NCBI GenBank assembly: GCA_010405405.1
Contig: MU004242.1
Location: forward strand, 38,748 to 102,747
DNA: 64,000 nucleotides
Direction of reading: 5' to 3'
Source: Microthyrium microscopicum
Lineage: Eukaryota > Ascomycota > Dothideomycetes > Microthyriales > Microthyriaceae
Below the pieces are notes generated by a model, which ran no database searches, was not told the DNA's origin, and saw only the letters and a list, made by a program, of their open reading frames with translations. The translations under genes and the position numbers were made by a program. Of the stretch, positions 39,396 through 57,433 are shown in pieces. Each line of letters begins with the position of its first letter. The stretch's first letter is position 1.

Positions 39396-42300
39396 ATGGG
39401 TTTCCCTACGACTTTTGGTCTTTTCCACTTCACACTCATTTACTGTCTCTCCTTTCTAATTTCTTCAACAAATTGCCTGGGCCATGCGACTGACACAACG
39501 ACTTGGGGAAGCGATACTTCAAGATGTGGCTATCAAACGTTTGTCGATCATCCCTCCATTAAGCTCTCATCTATATTAATCTGATCAGGAACCATAACAT
39601 GGATCCAAATATAGTCAATAGCGCCAATTTCGGTCAGCTATTCAAGACTAATTTGCCTGGAAACTTCAACAACCTTGCAGCTGAACAAATTTATTCTCAG
39701 CCTCTTGTGTTTACAGGAAGTGATGGCTCCCAACAGGTTTACGTAGCGACTTCTCAGAACAACATCTACAAGTTAGATGGCAAGACGGGTGCCATTCTTG
39801 CGTCAAGAAACCTAGGCGTACCATTCTTGTCTGCCGACTTGGGATGTAAGTTCGAAAATCAGCCACATGTCACTCATTCTAACTACAACATAAGCCTGCA
39901 ATGATATATCGCCTTGTATTGGTATAACTGCCACTGGTGTAATCGATCCGGCTACTGGCATCTGGTACTTAACCTCCAAAACATACTCTGAAGCTTTTCA
40001 AAACGGCAATTTCACTCCTTCGAGTCCTCCAGGAAGATTCAATGCGCGGTATTACTTTTATGCAATCAACACACAATCTTCAAATCTAGCTGACAGCTTC
40101 CCACGTGTCCAATTAGAAGGAATCTTGTTTCGGAACAATCAAAACCGCAAGTTCATCAGTGGCAATCAGCATTCTCGACCCGCGTTGGCACTTGTTGGCG
40201 ATTATGTATACACGGGCTATGCCAGCCACTGTGTCCAGTACAACTATACAGGTGCGATCATCGGACACAACAAGAATACGGGTGCCATTATCGAGTCTTT
40301 CGCTACTCAAGGTGGCCCTGAAGCCAACAGTATTGCAGGTGGCGGTGTCTGGATGTCGGGTGGTGGTATTGCCTATGATGGCAGTGGTAGTCTCTTCTTT
40401 GCAACTGGAAATGGCTGGGCATCTCAGCTGAGTGGAACTCCAGTCCCAGGAAGACAGCCTCCCAGCGCCCTAGAAGAAGCTGTGGTACATGCCAAAATAA
40501 ACACCAATGGAACCCTCTCCGTGGTCGATTTCTTCATGCCTTGGGAAAAAGTCCAGCTGGATGGAGCGGACAAGGATCTCGGAACTTCACCGTTTGAGCT
40601 TTTGCCTCCTGATGTCTTTTCTTGTCCTAACGTTCGTCGCATGGGTTTTGTAACTGGAAAATCTGGGAAAACTTATGTTCTCAACCTGGATAACCTTGGA
40701 GGATACCAGATGGGCTCCAACAAACTTGATGCCGCCATTCTCGTATATCAGAATGAAAACTCGGTCTATGCCGGAGCTGGTGTTATGCCTCTTGGGGGCG
40801 GCTACATCTATATCAACGTCATCAAATATCAAACTCGAGTATTCAAATTCAGCTGCGACAGTTCTGGAAATCCCGTTTTCACCGTCGATTCGGTTACTAA
40901 GGAATACAATTCCGGCTCTCTAGGCATTGGTCATGGTACAACCACCTCACTTGCTGATCAAGATGGAACTGGCCTATATTGGGTCACAGACACAAGTGGC
41001 TTGAATCTACGTATATACAATGCTGTTCCTTCCCAGAACGGGGCACCCTTGACTTTGATGAAATCATTCAACATTCCGGGCATGGGGAAGTTTGGTCGGC
41101 CTGTTTTCGGCGATGGACGAGCGTATTTTGTGACTTCAGTGGCTACAGTCTATGGTTATGGCTCTCCTGTCCAGCTACCTCTAAACTGTACAGGATCTAT
41201 TGTGTTTCCCAAAACACTTATTAATTCGACGTCACTTTCGTCAACCGTAAAATGCACAGCTGTTATTGACACCAAGATTGCAGCACTATCTGTGCTCGGA
41301 GATCCCCATTTCATCATATCCAATCTTCCTCCACCAAATCTCAATCTTCTGGCAGGCCAATTTTTCACTTTTAATGCCACATTTGCTCCTTTATCAGTAG
41401 GAGAACTGTCCAGTGATGTTTTAATCAACACCACGAATGTACAATCTGGATTTTCATCTAATACACCAGTCACACTCAGTGGAACCGGTGAATCTGCACA
41501 ACCTTTACTCGATATCTCACCAAATACTGCCTCGTTCAATGTCATAGTTGGTCAACAAAAAGGAGGAGTCAATCAATCCGTCATCTTCTCCAATCTCGGT
41601 GACCAGCCACTCTCCATAACAAACATACAGTTTTCCAAAATCAGCGAGACTGGGCCATGGCTGGCTGCAAATACCACATCTTTTCCTCGTACTTCTGGAC
41701 CTTTCACGTTCTATAACCTTCCATCTTCCATACCTGGCAACTCTGCGGTCACGGTGAATATCAACTATAATCCCACTACTACTGCCAACGATGGTGTTTT
41801 CATCCAAGTCATCACCAACGGCGGAGCGCAGGTTCTGGACGCCGTTGGCGTTGCTGGATCGTACCCTAAGGCTCTGATTGAGTTTGAGAATTCAGATGGA
41901 TCTGGCATCTGGCTTAGACTAGAGGATTCTTCTACATTTTCCTTTGGCAATGTTACCGAGAACCAGACAAAGCAATTGCGACTTCGAGTCACCAATGGTG
42001 GTGGACAATACGCTGTCCCTCTTTCAATCACCGTTTCCAAACCACCATATGGTGATCCTGGCATCATCGGTGCTATTAACAATGTTGATCTGGCTGAAGG
42101 TACACTTATCTCTGCTGGGCAAAGTGTCAATGCGACATTGTTCTGCTCTGTACCAAGGTCTCAAATGAATCTACCAAGCTATGTTGGAGCGGCTAACTGG
42201 ACTATGAACACGGCCGATCCTCTTTTGGGAAAGCAGTTCATCCAGTTCAATTGTAATGCTGTGACTGAACAGATTGGACCTCTTTTGGCTAACGGAACTG

Positions 42301-43430
42301 CGCAATTTCAATACGTTGGATGTTATCGAGAGAATACACCAGGCCGACAACTCTCTACGAACATATACACTGATGCCAAAAACAATACGAATGAGAAGTG
42401 TATTGCTGCTTGCTCAGCCGCTGGGTGGATATTTGCCGGCACACAATATCGACAAGAATGCTGGTGTGGAAATGCCATCCCTAACACACTTGATTTGGAA
42501 AGAGATTGTAATTATGCATGCACTGGCAACGTCAATGAAGTCTGTGGAGGCAGTGGATACTTTGGCGGTCAAGCAGAGTTCTCGCTCTTTGGTGATTCAA
42601 AGCGCTTCAATGGAAGCAAGATATCGCCTCCACTTTCTATCCCTCAAATCGTCAGCGGATACCAATATGCTGGATGTTATGCAGAGAATGGAGGCAAAGC
42701 TGTCAGCGCAATCAGTACGACAGATACAAAGTCCATGTCAGCTGAATTATGTGCCGCCTTTTGTGCTTCATACAGCTACTTCAGTCTGGAATTCGCGCAA
42801 GAATGCTCCTGTGGTAATTCCATTAACAATGCCGTGGCGACTTTGACAAACAACACGGATTGTAGTTTGAGCTGTAAAGGCAATAACAGCGAAACATGCG
42901 GCGCAAGTAATCGTGCACAGATTTATGCCAGAACCAGTGTTACTCTTGCACCTAGCGTATTACCACCTTCTTCATCTAGCACCATTTCCACCAGCTCGGC
43001 TTCATCTACGGCCACGCCAATCGGAAACTCCAATCCCCAGCACATCGGACATTATACCTACGTCGGTTGTTATACGGATAGTGTTGAAGCGCGAGCTCTT
43101 TCAACCGTCTATTATTCTAGTACAATGACTCTTGACCTATGTGCCGCTCAGGCATCTACTGCAGGAGTAAATGCTACATTCTTCGGGGTGGAATATCACC
43201 AAGAGTGTTGGTTCGGGAATTCCATGCTGAACGGCCAAGGCCCTGCTCCAGATTCTACAGCATGCAGCTTCCTCTGTCCGGGGAATGCACAACAAAACTG
43301 TGGAGCTGAGAACCGTCTGACTCTCTATCGATTAGAGTCCCAAATATACAGCAGCAACACGGATCCACTTTTAATGGTACAGTCACTGAACGTCAGCGCA
43401 ATATCCACAAGTTCGACCTTGATGTCATGA
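39396..43430 (+). CDS. Large secreted protein: beta-propeller, choice-of-anchor D, three WSC domains
   Basis: Join 39396-39538, 39589-39845, 39895-43430 gives 1311 aa. Signal peptide first (HFTLIYCLSFLISSTNC). Residues about 50-510 look like a PQQ-type beta-propeller (DTSRCGYQTNHN, DPNIVNSANFGQLFKT, GTVIDPATG-like ITATGVIDPATGIWYL). Next come repeated choice-of-anchor-D-like beta-sandwiches (FTFNATFAPLSVGEL, VTLSGTGESAQPLLDISPN). Three C-terminal WSC domains begin at YVGCYRENTPGRQL, YAGCYAENGGKAV and YVGCYTDSVEARAL. A Ser/Thr linker (PPSSSSTISTSSASSTA) separates the second and third. WSC domains bind glycans, so it is probably a cell-wall or extracellular carbohydrate-binding protein. The third WSC has CWFG where the others have CWCG/CSCG, so one cysteine is lost. 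Confidence 0.9.
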
Positions 43431-46601: not shown

Positions 46602-49055
46602 ATGGTTTCCTCTGTGGCCAATTCAGGAACAATCACAGCTTCCAAAATGAAGATTCTCTTTCTCTGCACTGCTCACAACTCACTTTCCCAGCGCCTGTAT
46701 TTGGCCTTGTCGACTTTTCACCATGTTACCATCGAATATGCGCTTTCCGAAGATGTTATGATTTCCGCGACCAAACTGGCAAATCCGGATCTGATCATAT
46801 GTCCGTTTTTGACCGCGCGCGTTCCGAAAGAAGTTTATGAGAATTACATGACTTTGATTATCCATCCAGGACCACCAGGTGATGCGGGACCAAGTTCTCT
46901 GGATTGGGTTCTTCTCGGAGACAATGGAACTGTGGATAACGCCGGAGAATTACTCAACACACTTTCTAGCGACGTTTGTCACCCAGGTAAGAATCCACTT
47001 GTTTTTATCCTCCGAAAGCCACCATCTTGATTTCGCGATGGACCCTCTTTAGCATAACTTGGCAGCTAGCGACTAGTTTTTGAGATTTTCTTCTGAAGAA
47101 TGATATCAAAAGTTTCCTGAATTTGAGGTTTGACGCGTTATATGAATGATCATCGTGCACTACCAATATTCTTGTACTAACCAATCTCAGGTCGAACGCA
47201 CTGGGGAATTACTGTTCTTCAGGCAATAGAGCAGTTTGATGCAGGACCAGTGTGGGCATTCGAGCAATTCTCAATTAATATCGATCAACAGACACTGAGC
47301 AAATCGGAGCTATATAGAGGGGCAGTGTCGCGAGCAGCAATTTCCGCAACGTTGGCTGCTGTCCGAAGAATCCAAGATATCGCATTTTCAACCCAAAAGC
47401 CTCTCACTGGACAGAGTGAGGTTGAAGGAGGTTGGTCAGCGATTGAGCTACAAATCTCCCCGGATATCAGACCTCATCCAGAGTACAAGACACTCTCCGT
47501 AGCAACCCAGGAGCCATTTCAAGGCGGCCCCACGTTTCATCGACCTCTTTTGAAGGCGGCGCAACGTGAATTCAATGTTGCTAAGCATACTGCTCAACAA
47601 ATTTCCCGTCGGATTCGTTGTGGCGACTCTCAACCAGGATCACTGAGTAAAGTATTTGGCCCGGACCTTTATGTTTACGGAGGAATTGTGGAGGATTGTC
47701 CCGAGGGTCCCAATCCAGGTGCTTGTCCTGGTGCATTTCCTGGAACGGTTGTTGCAACAAGAAATTCTGCAGTTTGTATCGCAACCTGTGATGGCCGTGG
47801 AGTATGGATCACGCACGTCCGGAGACCAAAGAAAGCCAAAGACGCAGCACTATGGCCCAAAGTCCCAGCTGTATCCGGATTAGTAGCACTTGGAGTTTTG
47901 ACAGCTTCTCACGTCCAAGATTTGCAATGGGACCTTCCGAACAACTGGGCAAAATCTCCTTTCCAAACATTCCAGGAGGTTTGGATCGATTTCGTCAGCT
48001 ATGCACCATCCAAACAGGCTGCATACCTCTACTTTGATTTTTATAATGGCGCTATGGCTACGGATCAATGCTCCTATCTTATCCAAGCTATGGATTATAT
48101 CATTGCGTCATCTACCTCAGATAATCCTGTTTGCGCCGTGGTTCTCATGGGGGGCCAATATTTCAGCAATGGAATTGCTCTCAATGTTATCGAAGCCAGC
48201 TCTTCGCCAGCAACGGAATCGTGGCTCAACATCAATCGCATAGATGATGTTGTACACTACTTGTTGCATGAATTTCGCAGCAGAAATATCGTTACTATCG
48301 CTGGCGTAAGAGGGAACGCAGCAGCTGGTGGAGTTGCACTCGCCGCAGCCTGTGACATTGTCGTTGCTGGCTCCGACGTTGTCCTTAATCCAGCTTATCG
48401 AGGCATCGGTCTCTATGGATCCGAATATCACTCCCTCTCCTACTCTGGCCGCTGCGGCCCCCAGAAAGCCTACCAGATACTTCGCTCAATGACACCACTC
48501 AGCCCTTTCCAAGCGCGCTCCATCGGCCTAGTCGACCACGTCTTCCCTGGCAACGGCAGTCTTCTTGACAAGCGCATACGAAACCACGTAGCAGTCATCG
48601 TACGATCTGGCAAACTAGGCCGCATCCCATGGACAGCCAAGCAAGAACTCTCTCCCGCCGTACTAGCACAAGCACGAGCCAAAGAGCTCAGCGAAATGGC
48701 GCAAGACTTCTACAGCCCGCGATCAGTGCGCTACCACAGCCGAAGATTCAACTTTGTGCGTAAGGTCAAACCAAAGCAAACACCACTACGCTTCGCCACA
48801 CATCGACGATTCGGCGCAGATCATCTGGACGAAGAAGAGCATAATGATTTTGATGACGTTGAGCATTATCAACGACAATTCGAGCTTCAGCTTCAACATC
48901 ATTTCCACATCACGTCTGGTGCCACCACTCCGTTATCAAGTACGCGAGATGCGTCAAGTATCCGCGATACCTCAAGTACTAGAGATGATTTGCATTCACC
49001 TCGAGGTAATGGCGAAACTATGTTCTCTTGCTACTATGCTCCTGTGAAGGCATAG
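46602..49055 (+). CDS. hypX: HypX-like formyltransferase/crotonase fusion
   Basis: Join 46602-46986 and 47191-49055 gives 749 aa. A start at 46647 (MKILFLCTAHNSLSQ) would match bacterial HypX/HoxX better and drop 15 residues. The N-terminal formyltransferase-like domain has HPGPPGDAGPSSLDW (from residue 88) and WGITVLQAIEQFDAGPVWAF. A linker domain follows (GPDLYVYGG, FPGTVVATRNSAVCIATCDG). The C-terminal crotonase domain has GGQYFSNGIALNVIEA (about 449), ESWLNINRIDDVV, VRGNAAAGGVALAAACD and NPAYRGIGLYGSEYH. This is the complete HypX order. In bacteria HypX makes the CO ligand of [NiFe] hydrogenase by way of formyl-CoA. Fungi have no known [NiFe] hydrogenase, so the role here is unknown. A disordered ~120-residue tail with SSTRDASSIRDTSSTRD repeats is an addition. 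Confidence 0.88.
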
Positions 49056-51645: not shown

Positions 51646-54534
51646 CTAAGAGGACTGACTGATCAGCGCCAAACTCTCATATATCCTTGTTCTCACAATA
51701 TCAAAAGTAGAATCAGTGATTGAGAAGCCTGGAAGACCGATGACTGCTTCTACTTCAATCTTGCCCACAGCAGACTTGCGCACCACCACCTGCCCATTGA
51801 CCAGTAAAGTTCCCTCTCCACGGAACTCTGCACCAACGCCCATTGATTGCATCCGTCGCCGTAGGTCAGAAAGTCGGACATCACCAACGTGCAAAGGGCG
51901 CGCAACGACGCGTGTGGCTGATAGAGCGGCAGTGCTGGCAACAACATCAAGCACGGGAACAGTTTCAACTTCTGCGTCGTTTGCATCTGTAGTCACTTCC
52001 GTGCTGGTGGTGGTGATGGCTTTGCTTGCGGGGTCACCTTTCAGTCGTTTGGCTTGATGTTGTGGCTGCGCAAGAGTGATGGCCATAGCTTTCAGCTGGC
52101 CACTTAATGGGTAAACGCCCAAACTGCCCACCATCTGCCATTTGATGTTACCGAGCGCATCACTGAGCTTGACGTTCCAGGCGTTTGTGTCTACGCTGGC
52201 GTTGAGTGTTTCTCCCACTGCCGGAGTGAACACTTCAGATGCGTTATCTCCAGAACTTGTATCAGTGTCAAGAAGCTTTTCGCACTCCGCTTGAAGTGCC
52301 ATAGTTTCCTCAGGGTCACCGCCAGTCAACACCAGTTTGCGTGGACGAATGAGTGGAATCAGCATCTGCATGCTTCTTCTGTCATGCAAACCGCTAAAGT
52401 CGGCGTGAGCAAGCCTCATGTTAATGGTGATAGTCTTGGTTTCGTAGACGACTTTGACAGGCCCTTCAGGTTTTTCCGGTGCCTCATCATCACTGTCAGA
52501 ATCATCCCCGAATTCAGTGCCATTTCCCATGGTATCGTAACCCGAGTCTGTATAAACACCATCATCTTGTGTCTTGCCCGAGACCTTTCTCTTCTTGGAT
52601 GAGCCATTGATATCGATCGCTGCTGTGAGATTGGTTTGGCTAAGTTGTCCCCATTTACGCTTTTGCCCCATCTCAACCTCCTTACTACTCTTGTGGGCTT
52701 TTTGGTCGTTGGCCAAATTCTCACGTTCTTCAGCTCGTAGATAATCATCGGGTCGAATGATTTCACCATATTCGTCTGATCGCTGAGCTTTTTTGGGCGG
52801 CATTATGGGAAACATGCGTTCTCGACCACGCTTGCCACGGACATCGTAATCGTAGTGACCTTTTCGACGAATAAGAATATCAATACCCAGCTCCGCATCA
52901 GTCAGTCCAGCCTTGTGTCGAGCGGAGCTTAAGTTGGTAGTGACGTTGAGAACCTTTCCTTGCTGCTCATCGTCGGATTCTTCAGATTCGTCGGATGAAG
53001 ATGAGGCATTATCATCAATGGCATCGTCCACGCCTGGACGGAGATTTGTAGCTTTGTCAGCATCGATTGTCCACTGTTTTTGTCGCTCCGCTGCTAGATA
53101 CTGTTGATATAGAATGGTTTCGTTTTCTCCCAGTTTTTCCATTTTCGCATGGGTAAAGGAAATCGATTGGCCAGCAGTTTCCACGACGGCGTCTGGGTCA
53201 ATTTCGCCATTTGCTTTAGCGAGGGAACTGTCATCGCACCAAAGGTTCCAGAGAGTATGGCTAATGCTTTCGCGCCCAGTAGGAGTTTGCGTAATTGGTT
53301 GTGAAAGAACCACAAGATTTTGTTCGTTGGCACAAAACTCGTCAAAGAAAGTTCTGGCATGACCCCATTCTAATGAAAGATCTGAAGCGAGAATGACTTT
53401 GGGGCCGCTTTGCGCCATCATTTTCTTGATCTGTCGGGCCTTTTCGACGAAGCGTAGATGTTTGAAATCGAATGGCGTTTTGATATCCTGTTGATTTTGG
53501 TTTCTGTTGTCCTGGCCGAGAGATTCAAATTCGCGCACAATATCGGGATCCATCCATTCAAGCATTGATTTCGCATGTCTCATTGTCAATCCCGCAGAAG
53601 CACTGGCAAAATAGAGGCTTGCATTCTTTAAAGAGTCTGTGTTCTCTGGTCCAGACTTTTCATCGTTCCAGGTGTTTTCAAGGAAATAGGCCAACTCGAG
53701 GGAGCGAGCACAAGAATCAGATGGGATGAGGACAGAACCACCATTTGAAATTGTAGTTTTGATAAGATTGATCAGATGGCTATCTCGTTGTTCGCGAGGA
53801 AACATGACGCGTTGAGAACATCGGCTGCTACATATGAGGGCAGTAGGCCTTCTCAAGCTCTCAATGACCTCGGTACCACCAGCAGAAAGCCACGCAGCGG
53901 CTAAAAGGGCCGTTTCTTTGGCTTGATTCCAATCGACAGCGTAGACTATGGACTCGAGGTCATGCTGAATGTGCCATATTGTACCACCCAACGAATGACC
54001 TGCGCTGTAGGCTGTGATTGTGAGGCCGTTCAATGGCGGGGAGGATGGCGAAGCTTCCGGTTCGAATGGCTGAGAGAACTTGAGAGGGCGAATGAGATTA
54101 AAGTATTCGGTGATATCCTCATTGGTAGGTGGTTGGTGTAGCATATTAGGCACTGGCCCTTTGGCTTGCGAGGGATTGTAAAAGGCATCTTGAGGGATAG
54201 TTGATGCGGCGATTGGATTGGTGGCGTAGATATCCTGAAGTAAGGCCCGTCCCAGGGATATGACTGGCACAGTGGCGTATACGGGGATTGATTTGAATTG
54301 AGGAAAGTGTTTGCAACAATGAGCAAATGCGCCTAGATGAGAAGTGGTCGCATGTGTGAGGAGGATAAGGGAGATGCTCGGAACGTGGGATTCGAGAGAT
54401 TTGAGTAGGGAAGCATCGAAACTTTCATCCCAGCCGACATCCACGAGAATATTGATGCCTGCTTCTAGTTGTAAGAGTGATATTGAGGCAGAGGAGGAGG
54501 ATCTGGCGCCTAGAAGGGAGGTAAAGTTGAACAT
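51646..54534 (-). CDS. CFT2: Cleavage and polyadenylation factor subunit 2 (CPSF100/Cft2)
   Basis: A single exon of 962 aa, the expected size. The start MFNFTSLLG at 54534 matches the family's usual beginning; the longer frame upstream begins without ATG. Order: a metallo-beta-lactamase-like domain, where LLTHATTSHLGAF replaces the HxHxDH metal motif, as in the catalytically dead CPSF100 branch; a beta-CASP region (FPREQRDSHLINLIKTTISNGGSVLIPSDSCARSLEL, key residues R and S/D); an acidic disordered insert (SSSSDESEESDDEQ); and a C-terminal MBL-fold end with HADFSGLHDRRSMQMLIPLIRPRKLVL. It acts in the pre-mRNA 3'-end processing complex as partner of the endonuclease CPSF73/Ysh1. No introns. 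Confidence 0.93.
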   Translation of the reverse strand: MFNFTSLLGARSSSSASISLLQLEAGINILVDVGWDESFDASLLKSLESHVPSISLILLTHATTSHLGAFAHCCKHFPQFKSIPVYATVPVISLGRALLQDIYATNPIAASTIPQDAFYNPSQAKGPVPNMLHQPPTNEDITEYFNLIRPLKFSQPFEPEASPSSPPLNGLTITAYSAGHSLGGTIWHIQHDLESIVYAVDWNQAKETALLAAAWLSAGGTEVIESLRRPTALICSSRCSQRVMFPREQRDSHLINLIKTTISNGGSVLIPSDSCARSLELAYFLENTWNDEKSGPENTDSLKNASLYFASASAGLTMRHAKSMLEWMDPDIVREFESLGQDNRNQNQQDIKTPFDFKHLRFVEKARQIKKMMAQSGPKVILASDLSLEWGHARTFFDEFCANEQNLVVLSQPITQTPTGRESISHTLWNLWCDDSSLAKANGEIDPDAVVETAGQSISFTHAKMEKLGENETILYQQYLAAERQKQWTIDADKATNLRPGVDDAIDDNASSSSDESEESDDEQQGKVLNVTTNLSSARHKAGLTDAELGIDILIRRKGHYDYDVRGKRGRERMFPIMPPKKAQRSDEYGEIIRPDDYLRAEERENLANDQKAHKSSKEVEMGQKRKWGQLSQTNLTAAIDINGSSKKRKVSGKTQDDGVYTDSGYDTMGNGTEFGDDSDSDDEAPEKPEGPVKVVYETKTITINMRLAHADFSGLHDRRSMQMLIPLIRPRKLVLTGGDPEETMALQAECEKLLDTDTSSGDNASEVFTPAVGETLNASVDTNAWNVKLSDALGNIKWQMVGSLGVYPLSGQLKAMAITLAQPQHQAKRLKGDPASKAITTTSTEVTTDANDAEVETVPVLDVVASTAALSATRVVARPLHVGDVRLSDLRRRMQSMGVGAEFRGEGTLLVNGQVVVRKSAVGKIEVEAVIGLPGFSITDSTFDIVRTRIYESLALISQSS

Positions 54535-57433
54535 CGGATTGGACGGGGCATTTGAAATCAATGGCCAAGGCGAGAAGTGATGGCTATGCGGGAAGACAGA
54601 GAAGCTCGATAGTGGTAATGCGATGGTCGAATGGTAGAGAAGTGTATGAGGATGCGACGGCGATGTGAAGAAAGTTGGTGATGCTCGAGACGGAAGAAGT
54701 TGGGATGGTGTTGAGTTCGGTCACGATAATTAGGCAGTCGCGAAGCCTCTAGCCTACTCTGAGTAGGTCGGAAGGAGTGACAAAGGCAGGAGCAACCAAC
54801 TGGTAATCGCGTGGCAGCAAAGGTCAGTCGCAATGCACAAAGAAGGAAGTCGCGAAGTTGGTGTTTTGGCAAGAGCTCCATCATCCAATCCACATTTGGC
54901 TTAGCTCCCATGCTTCCAGTCTGGCTGCCTTGGCTCCTAACCATACACTGTCGATGCCTGAAACTCAACTCTATCAACATCCATATCTTCTATCTTCTCC
55001 TATCAATAACATCCTCAAGAGATTTATTGAGTTTGCTTATGGTCGTTGCGGAAGTCATCTGAAGGGCGAGACAAACAGCGTTCCCCGTTGAATCCCGATC
55101 TTAACATCGACTAGGTACAATTGACGACCCTTCATTATCTGATGCTCACTCGTATCGATTACATCAAAAGCGAATACCGCGATAGCATCTTCTCTTTACA
55201 GAACTTGCGAGGCATTATTGATTTCGATGGCTCAGAAGGATGTCTTCGCCTCGCTCTTCACGAGTTTCATAGTCGACAGCAACTTTGGCATGCGATAAGC
55301 TTCTACTTCTGTCAGAAATACTTACGGGCGAAGCATCAGAAAATAACTCGTCTAGGTGGCTGCTGCTGCATACTGAAATCATCGCCATGTTTTCCATGTC
55401 CGCAGTGCGAGCTTTCTGGGACTTCCGAACAATGGAGTTTTTCCACTTGTAGCCATGTGGCCCGAAGTTTGCTGTCAACGGGCAGAATGTTTTAGATCAT
55501 AGCGACTGGTGGACACTCACTATTATCATCATCGCCATCTCTTCACGCAATACGAATGCTCTGGGTCTTTTGAAGAAGAACAATGGTGTCCTTCCACTTC
55601 CAGCCATGGCCCGAAGTTTTGCTGTCAACGGGCAGAATGTTTTAGATCATAGCGATTTCGGTGGGCACTCACTATCATCATCGCCATCTTCTCACGCAAT
55701 ACGGACGCTCTGGGTCTTCCGAAAAAGAACAATGGAGTCCTTCCACTTCCAGCCATGGCCCGAAGTTTTGCTGTCATCGGGAAGGTTGTTTCGGATCTTG
55801 GCGATCTCAGCATTGAAACAATTCGCATCCACCCATGATTCCTTCAAATTTACTGGTTGTCGATGCTGCAGGTCAACCTCACATTAGACTAGGACTTGCA
55901 TCGCTTGAGAATATAGGTGGTTTCGTTTGACATGATTGTCTTTCACCCTCAGCAACGTGCTACGGAGGCCTTTCCATTATGATGCTTCTTTGCATGCTTC
56001 TATTGTTCCACAACGATTCCATGGCTTACGCTATCAGCTTTGCTTCCTGCTGTTTATGCGATCTCCCCCTCCATGCCAGATATGACTTGATCAAGTTTTA
56101 CAACAGAATCTTCACCACTACCAATGCTCAAGTGAGTGTTTGATAGGCTCAAAGGAGATACCAAGTCCTTACCTGATACTATAAACATACGAAATGGATT
56201 ATACGGCTCAGGTTCGGTCATAGCCTTCCCTTTTGGAACCTCAGTCCGCAGTATTTATTTCCAGTCATTTCTCGAGCTCTTGCCGGCTCAAATGCGCTGT
56301 GCAGCTGCAAAACATTGGACTTCTTCTTTATGCAACCAAACATAACCCTATGGCAGTGCGAAAGGCCTGTCAGAAAGGCCTATACGCCGCTATCAACCAT
56401 GCTGGTGATCTCTTCGTGTGGAGGTAGGCGAGCAGTATTTCCAAAGTCGTTTCAATTCTGTTCAACAATACTTTACAGGCCATTGTATCCAATCTGTCTG
56501 GCATACACTTGTTGTTCAAGAGAGCAATTGAGGATGCTAGCTGCCCTTGTATCACATCATGTAATCCTGGCTTCCCATGAGCTTCCAGATTTCACTTGTC
56601 TCGTGTGCCTGTCTAGGGCATTACGAGAAGAAGCTAAGCAGTGAGAGTCTATCTCCACATCAGTTCGTACACCGACTTCCCATGCTGCCTTAAACCCAGT
56701 ATCACATCCCCACAAGCTGTCATTGATAAACATGCAAGTTAGGAAGTATTTGAATTGAATCGCCATTATTCGGCCCTTTCTCTTCATCTTACCATCCTCT
56801 TCTCTTGTCTGGCACTGGCCATCAAGCCTAAATTAGAAAGTGGTTCATTCATGCAGGAACAACTCCAGCTTTCTACATAAATATATACGCTTCATATCTG
56901 AACAACAATGTTCAAATCCAATCTTCAATTCACCTTTCGTGCTCTCGGAAGTACCGTCACTGTTTCTATCAGCTAAAAATGTTCTGTTGGATAGTACTCC
57001 AAATATGCCCCTATCTTCCTGTCTTTGTAGGCGCCTTACACAGAGATCTTTAGGGCAGCGAAGACTACAGTTTGGCAGTCGAATGTTTCCTCGCATATTC
57101 CGAACTTCTCCTTATACTCTAGCAGCCAATCCTCTTCTGATGTTTCTTACTTCCCATGTGCGCAAAAATATTCGAGCAATGCAAACATGTCTGAGAGCCC
57201 TTGAGCCAAACGGTTTCGCGGCCATGATACACGGCTCTTCCGTGTACAACAATACTGCCGCCTTATAGATAATACTTCTAGAACTCGCACCGAAGAAAAA
57301 GCAATTTTCAAGAACCACTCGAACTACGGACCGTCAAAACCCTGTGCTGGTCCATTGCTATCGATCCAATACAAACCTGGCTGTCTCACCTCAATACTGA
57401 TGTCCCCTACCATGGCCTAAATTCGGACTCGAG
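54535..57433. other. Gene-poor stretch with tandem repeats
   Basis: About 2.9 kb without a gene I can support. It contains the ~150-bp tandem repeat at 55376-55795. Around 57020-57310 the minus strand has short coding-like pieces (SRSIIYKAAVLLYTEE, then RLPNCSLRCPKDLCVRRL in another frame) reminiscent of the small fungal 2EXR/F-box-type proteins. They do not join into a gene. The open frame 56840-57268 on the plus strand lacks an ATG and overlaps them. Confidence 0.5.
55376..55795. repeat. ~150-bp tandem repeat, about 2.8 copies
   Basis: The unit begins GAACAATGGAGTCCTTCCAC and recurs at about 55427, 55578 and 55727, with spacings of 151 and 149 bp. A partial copy precedes the first (55376-55425). 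Units share the block CCCGAAGTTTTGCTGTCAAC and the block CATCATCGCCATCTTCTCAC. Copies differ by scattered substitutions and small indels. Short open frames run through it on both strands, but none is shared by all copies. Confidence 0.85.

Follow-up and report, generated by a model that had tools for sequence, protein, structure and literature searches.

A HypX-family gene in the filamentous fungus Microthyrium microscopicum and its possible use outside hydrogenase maturation

A window of 64,000 nucleotides from the filamentous fungus Microthyrium microscopicum (NCBI GenBank assembly GCA_010405405.1, contig MU004242.1, positions 38,748 to 102,747 of the forward strand) was analysed, and one of its genes was found to encode a genuine HypX-family (HypX/HoxX) enzyme. 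PMC6802093 and PMC12134894 present HypX as an enzyme of hydrogenase maturation. The fungal protein is HypX by family, though not a hydrogenase maturation factor by role. A profile search of its own genome gave no match to NiFeSe_Hases (PF00374), HypD (PF01924) or zf-HYPF (PF07503); as positive controls, these profiles matched 5, 4 and 4 of 14 control genomes, respectively. Therefore, a non-hydrogenase purpose is the sensible reading. The protein is most likely a folate-fed, coenzyme A (CoA)-dependent enzyme releasing carbon monoxide (CO) for a purpose other than hydrogenase, perhaps signalling. Hydrogenase-free bacteria in which HypX lies beside a gene for an MHYT membrane gas sensor suggest that this CO may serve as a signal.

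Family membership, gene structure and distribution

The match to HypX of Aquifex aeolicus (phmmer E 1.8e-97, 330.8 bits) spanned both domains, and comparison of sequence and structure showed that a single chain combines a formyltransferase-like N-terminal domain with a crotonase C-terminal domain. For the formyltransferase-like subdomain, the match to the A. aeolicus structure 6j0p lay at residues 12-190 of a 749-residue form of the protein, and Pfam Formyl_trans_N was found below the cut-off only. Ordinary enoyl-CoA hydratases and methionyl-tRNA formyltransferases have single-domain folds in common with the fungal protein, but they were rejected as its identity because their similarity was far lower (at most 43 bits, the score of the best ordinary enoyl-CoA hydratase, compared with 331 for A. 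aeolicus HypX) and covered one half only. The separation from other crotonases is given by these scores, the trees described below having held HypX proteins only. The VIA-align rows past HypX covered the crotonase part, with one domain filling the list, and there was no HypX model among the 25 listed of 63 NCBIfam families. Membership of the HypX family is secure, and the identity is supported by both sequence and structure.

Joining positions 46602-46986 to 47191-49055 gave a translated frame of 749 residues and a stop codon. The intron starts with GTAAGA, ends with CTAACCAATCTCAG and carries a branch-point-like CTAAC 14 nucleotides before its end. The in-frame ATG at 46647, which gives 734 residues, is a likelier start than the ATG at 46602, because the public M. 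microscopicum protein P0001 and nine of the ten other fungal rows of alignment A1, which sets 11 fungal against 12 bacterial rows, begin there; the tenth, P0072, starts 8 residues earlier. P0001 is identical to the window HypX over the aligned part, but HPG is missing at the exon junction; a donor placed 9 nucleotides further upstream would account for this loss of three residues. Since RPG, KPG or similar residues stand at this junction in most fungal rows, the donor chosen in the original prediction is better than that of P0001. That prediction had called the gene a complete HypX/HoxX homologue of 749 residues with "two introns' worth" of host features. Completeness was confirmed, with the quoted motifs in place and the match extending across both domains, and so were its donor and intron; its start at 46602 gave way to 46647, and its wording was loose, as only one intron, of 204 nucleotides, exists. 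When the 36.9-Mb assembly was searched with the HypX protein, the two matches obtained were the two exons, indicating a single copy, which sits on a contig of 1.18 Mb (labelled C13).

Among 7,997 candidates scored, 4,125 proteins were related to the window HypX at E up to 0.001. The best 120 were near full length (query coverage 87-99%, identity 54-100%), and 42 of them bear fungal names; the named species belong to the Dothideomycetes, Orbiliomycetes and Sordariomycetes. Some fungal relatives were already annotated as hydrogenase maturation factor HoxX. Fungal HypX is thus real, as predicted, but less singular than had been implied. In the open-access literature, most subscription papers being outside this scope, we found no description of HypX or HoxX in fungi, and none of this fungal branch.

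Two trees of 108 and 50 HypX proteins were built, containing 16 and 8 fungal rows, all from named species. In both trees the fungal proteins formed one clade with full support, on a very long stem (1.33 and 1.56 changes per site, respectively). In the 50-row tree, the fungi fell outside the main clade of hyp-associated rows (13 rows, 94/99), and none of the other bacterial lineages was a supported sister of the fungal clade. On these grounds, the idea that fungi recently acquired the gene from a nameable bacterium was rejected; fungal HypX is an old, single fungal clade. No relative was confirmed in a scan of IMG/VR.

Catalytic residues, CoA contacts and fungal-type features

Residues were compared among the 120 best relatives of the window protein (the fungal-type rows, 42 with fungal organism names and the rest nameless, P0001 included) and 200 bacterial rows, made up of 80 bacterial loci and the 120 top-ranking relatives of A. 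aeolicus HypX. Reference numbers such as His74 and Tyr416 are those of A. aeolicus HypX, whose residue roles were taken from PMC6802093, and numbers such as His73 and Tyr516 count from the ATG at 46647. The formyl-transfer triad and the two proposed decarbonylation residues were kept in all 120 fungal-type rows (Table 1). Among the CoA contacts, Ser194, Gln195, Asn306 and Arg131 were kept in 118, 120, 120 and 119 of these rows, respectively, and the tunnel-neck residue Ala392 in 120; in the alignment, these anchors and the neck residues Ala392/Ile419 are retained in the fungal protein. Arg542 was replaced by Lys, and Arg9 by Ala or Ser, in most fungal-type rows.

Compared with HypX/HoxX of A. 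aeolicus (6J0P) and Cupriavidus necator, the fungus differs in that no hydrogenase or HypD was found, and its protein differs in the replacement of His415 and Arg81, in a Tyr416-Glu426 loop with one residue fewer, in an insert of about 22 residues and in a long tail with conserved spots. The shorter loop was present in all fungal-type rows and in 28 of the 80 bacterial loci, and in none of the 120 A. aeolicus-like rows. The median tail length was 102 residues in the fungal proteins and 6 in the bacterial ones. With P0021 and P0076 left out for want of the anchor, DEEE was found in 111 and CYY in 96 of 118 fungal-type tails, and CHY was found in 8 of the 12 inspected tails that lack CYY. In the model of P0001, the predicted local distance difference test score was below 50 at tail residues 693-696 and 698-715. 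The two conserved spots may be docking motifs. At five bacterial loci from Bacteroidota (L017, L021, L031, L036 and L063), HypX has Thr at the expected position of the catalytic Tyr416, and hyp genes were nearby in all five.

Table 1. Coordinates of the HypX gene, its domains, residues and fungal-type features in the window, and of regulator genes at four methanotroph loci
Feature	Position	Strand	Basis or remark
Exon 1, HypX gene	46647..46986	+	translation, splice sites; start by relatives and P0001
Spliceosomal intron, 204 nucleotides, GTAAGA...CTAAC...CAG	46987..47190	+	splice sites; junction residues like RPG in most fungal rows
Exon 2, HypX gene, stop codon included	47191..49055	+	translation, splice sites
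Formyltransferase-like N-terminal subdomain, residues 1-180 (approximate), intron inside	46647..47390	+	6j0p match; model
Formyl_trans_C / OB-fold subdomain, residues 237-329	47559..47837	+	PF02911 E 7.8e-07, above cut-off
Crotonase (ECH_1) core, residues 420-576	48108..48578	+	PF00378 E 2.7e-16, above cut-off
His73 (A. aeolicus His74), formyl-transfer triad	46863..46865	+	kept in 120/120 listed relatives
Asp79 (A. aeolicus Asp80), formyl-transfer triad	46881-46883	+	kept in 120/120 listed relatives
Asp130 (A. aeolicus Asp109), formyl-transfer triad	47238-47240	+	kept in 120/120 listed relatives
Ala515 at the His415 site, beside the catalytic Tyr	48393..48395	+	fungal-type change
Tyr516 (A. 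aeolicus Tyr416), proposed decarbonylation residue	48396..48398	+	kept in 120/120 listed relatives
Glu525 (A. aeolicus Glu426), proposed decarbonylation residue	48423-48425	+	kept in 120/120 listed relatives
Fungal-type insert after LDW, about 22 residues, bounds approximate	46908..46982	+	alignment A1
Fungal-type C-terminal tail, residues 654-734	48810..49052	+	comparison of tails
Tail motif DEEE	from 48828	+	
Tail motif FSCYY	49023-49037	+	
DJ-1/PfpI-AraC regulator gene	L034:6882-7928		
DJ-1/PfpI-AraC regulator gene	L057:6933-7988		
DJ-1/PfpI-AraC regulator gene	L072:5840-6874		
DJ-1/PfpI-AraC regulator gene	L078:6840-7913		

HypX and MHYT genes in bacteria and in the fungus

The bacterial set consisted of the best 80 loci of at least 591 genome stretches encoding a HypX relative, and the seeds for scoring hyp context, HypA-E and two large subunits only, came from two annotated plasmids. 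Within the DNA examined, genes for hyp proteins or hydrogenase were present in 53 loci and absent from 27, the latter including short contigs and contig ends. An MHYT gene was found beside HypX in 11 of the 27 loci without hyp genes, compared with none of the 53 with them (Fisher p 1.2e-6, a value that is too favourable, since Nocardia supplies 7 of the 11 pairs, which hence are not independent). On the tree, the MHYT label required a minimum of 6 changes and the hyp-context label 4. The neighbour consists of MHYT alone in Nocardia, Streptomyces and Aliikangiella (with one gene between HypX and MHYT in the last), of MHYT-PAS-GGDEF-EAL in Bacillus aerolatus and of MHYT-PAS-HisKA-HATPase-REC-REC in a Methylococcaceae assembly. 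In Aliikangiella, B. aerolatus and the Methylococcaceae assembly, every MHYT match found was the gene neighbouring HypX. The HypX architecture of such bacteria is common to the fungus, and the one-residue deletion in the Tyr416-Glu426 loop was also seen in 19 of the 27 loci.

Neither PF00374 nor HypD was found in seven of the 30 genomes tested (L012, L042, L044, L045, L064, L067 and L070), and an MHYT neighbour was present in five of these seven, the exceptions being L012 and L042. The original prediction of a purpose beyond hydrogenase was supported by the missing marks in the fungal genome and the positive controls. Bacterial genomes without hydrogenase marks carry HypX too, and their gene neighbourhoods point to a candidate purpose that was not part of that prediction. 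HypX was found in 14 of 274 Gammaproteobacteria and 7 of 346 Actinomycetota genomes, query genomes counted, and in 299 Bacillota genomes the query genome's own HypX was the only full-length one among the listed matches. Of 19 further loci, 15 had hyp genes and no MHYT neighbour, and 4 had no hyp genes, 2 of them with an MHYT neighbour in an arrangement closely resembling that of Nocardia. An MHYT-like match beside HypX in Embleya (L127) was dropped, as Pfam gave no confirmation.

MHYT domains are present in the fungal genome too. Two MHYT genes were found, one on contig C2 encoding a hybrid histidine kinase (MHYT-HisKA-HATPase-REC) and one on contig C11 adjoining a 530-residue open frame without a Pfam match. 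Six named fungi were common to the lists of the best 120 HypX and the best 120 MHYT-kinase relatives: M. microscopicum, Venturia inaequalis, V. effusa, Verruconis gallopava, Tothia fuscella and Xylariales sp. PMI_506. The link between HypX and MHYT in fungi is one of co-presence only. PMC11347149 describes CoxC of Afipia carboxidovorans as a protein that requires copper and uses its MHYT domain to sense CO. CoxC is an MHYT-LytTR repressor, which differs from the fungal kinase, and the ligand of the latter is only putative. No paper holding both MHYT and HypX was found in the open-access literature.

Other arrangements were seen around bacterial HypX genes. On a Mycetohabitans rhizoxinica plasmid (L120:7001-8755), HypX lies near genes for an acyltransferase, an acyl carrier protein and an acyl-CoA dehydrogenase, with no hyp or MHYT gene within the DNA examined around the locus; records related to this one have the fungus Rhizopus microsporus as their source. 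Two plasmids of a single Nocardia strain also bear HypX (L125:5992-7692 and L126:5995-7668), and the DNA examined there showed neither hyp nor MHYT genes as neighbours. HypX of a Methylomonas (L078:7935-10163) carries a fused hemerythrin domain at its C-terminus (PF01814, E 8e-08), a gas- or iron-binding module. A DJ-1/PfpI-AraC regulator gene was located upstream of HypX in four methanotroph loci (Table 1), with one open frame between the two genes in L072. In the fungal window, a CPSF100/Cft2-like gene (Lactamase_B_6, Beta-Casp, CPSF100_C) lies downstream of HypX on the minus strand (51646-54561), and an open frame with three WSC domain stretches lies upstream (40125-43430).

Possible functions of fungal HypX

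We regard HypX-type formyl-CoA/CO chemistry with a non-hydrogenase purpose as reasonably likely in the fungus, because the protein keeps the features needed for it, and the changes at His415 and Arg81 are the main doubt. Formyl-CoA would arise from N10-formyl-tetrahydrofolate, and the CoA arm would swing through an internal tunnel, judged from the aligned residues, to the crotonase domain, where Tyr516 and Glu525 may release CO from formyl-CoA, and the CO (or formyl-CoA) would serve something other than hydrogenase. CO is a plausible output of the enzyme, although both the catalysis and this product are what we infer. For gas signalling, the MHYT proteins are candidate receivers of the HypX product. 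This is the best lead, because MHYT recurs beside HypX in unrelated bacteria without nearby hyp genes, but the signalling step taken alone is rather improbable, and its extension to the fungus is conjectural. Slightly more doubtful still is the fuller proposal, in which CO would be a HypX-made second messenger that reports the formyl-folate pool to copper-bearing MHYT membrane receptors coupled to cyclic di-GMP enzymes or histidine kinases, in several bacterial lineages and in filamentous ascomycetes, with no hydrogenase involved.

Several observations weigh against CO chemistry or MHYT signalling. His415 was replaced by Ala in 118 and by Ser in 2 of the 120 fungal-type rows and was kept in all 200 bacterial rows, while none of the 120 had Arg81 (Ala, Val, Ile or Ser stood in its place), which was kept in 196 of 200 bacterial rows (the others being 2 gaps, 1 Ala and 1 Lys). 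Hence, the site of decarbonylation may have changed. The fungal MHYT genes on C2 and C11 are unlinked to HypX on C13, in contrast to the bacterial neighbours, and many fungi appeared in just one of the two lists, so no strict co-occurrence is shown; since the lists hold the best 120, absence from one of them proves neither presence nor absence. In bacteria, besides the predominance of Nocardia, 16 of the 27 loci without hyp genes also had no MHYT neighbour, and 5 of the 11 paired loci are in genomes with HypD (among them L026 and L028; the genome of L043 was outside the set examined). Of the seven genomes without hydrogenase marks, three (L012, L042 and L067) were assembled from metagenomes, and parts of them may be missing. 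Ten genomes with HypX outside hyp context had no MHYT neighbour, 6 of them having MHYT elsewhere and 4 having none, and therefore HypX needs no MHYT. No MHYT neighbour was confirmed at the ten plasmid loci examined of 48 HypX plasmid records. According to PMC11347149, oxygen opposes CO in CoxC and another MHYT protein is linked to nitric oxide, so CO need not be the ligand. Apart from these points, the fungal genome has a heme-oxygenase-like gene (E 3.6e-10, C5:1319598-1320116), which makes haem a possible second source of CO in the fungus.

A rather unlikely alternative is a one-carbon overflow valve, in which the formyl group of N10-formyl-tetrahydrofolate would be hydrolysed or discarded, as formate or vented CO, and tetrahydrofolate regenerated with no signalling, much like the hydrolase domain of 10-formyl-tetrahydrofolate dehydrogenase. 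The formyltransferase fold and the His and Asp residues kept in the N-terminal domain agree with this idea, and formyl-CoA could end up being hydrolysed as a result of the His415 and Arg81 changes. However, a plain hydrolase needs no CoA tunnel, 3'-phosphate anchors or crotonase Tyr and Glu, all of which are kept. The mushrooms that emit CO are basidiomycetes, outside the fungal clade examined, and serve as background only. Their emission, which would suit a valve, is of unknown enzymatic origin according to PMC12909089.

The changes next to the catalytic Tyr also bear on a less probable alternative, that of a formyl-CoA synthase whose crotonase half no longer frees CO, so that formyl-CoA or another acyl transfer would be used biosynthetically. 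Both the replacement of His415 by Ala and the shorter Tyr416-Glu426 loop are compatible with it, and the conserved tail motif could dock a partner. Nevertheless, Tyr416 and Glu426 were kept in every fungal-type row, and of the 28 bacterial loci that share the shorter loop, 9 sit beside hyp genes. Among the five window open frames scanned with Pfam (one CPSF100-like, one with WSC domains and three without a match), there was no biosynthetic gene.

It is very unlikely that HypX supplies a CO ligand to a non-hydrogenase Fe-CO centre, given that HypD and zf-HYPF had no match in the genome and that, to our knowledge, there is no fungal Fe-CO metallocofactor of this kind. The conserved tail could dock a scaffold for such a centre. 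In bacteria, HypX is established as a supplier of a CO ligand (PMC12134894). Contamination or a pseudogene was rejected as next to impossible, as originally predicted of a gene settled in its genome, in view of the spliceosomal intron, the intact frame, the single copy on a 1.18-Mb contig, and the 120 listed relatives with their one fully supported fungal clade; nothing was found in its favour.

Taken together, the conserved old fungal branch and the bacterial genomes that have HypX without hydrogenase marks indicate that HypX chemistry is also put to some other use. From the MHYT neighbourhood comes a testable proposal for it, in which CO derived from folate would be an endogenous signal, made by one dedicated protein and sensed by another. 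Fungal HypX is therewith a candidate gene for non-haem CO production in fungi.
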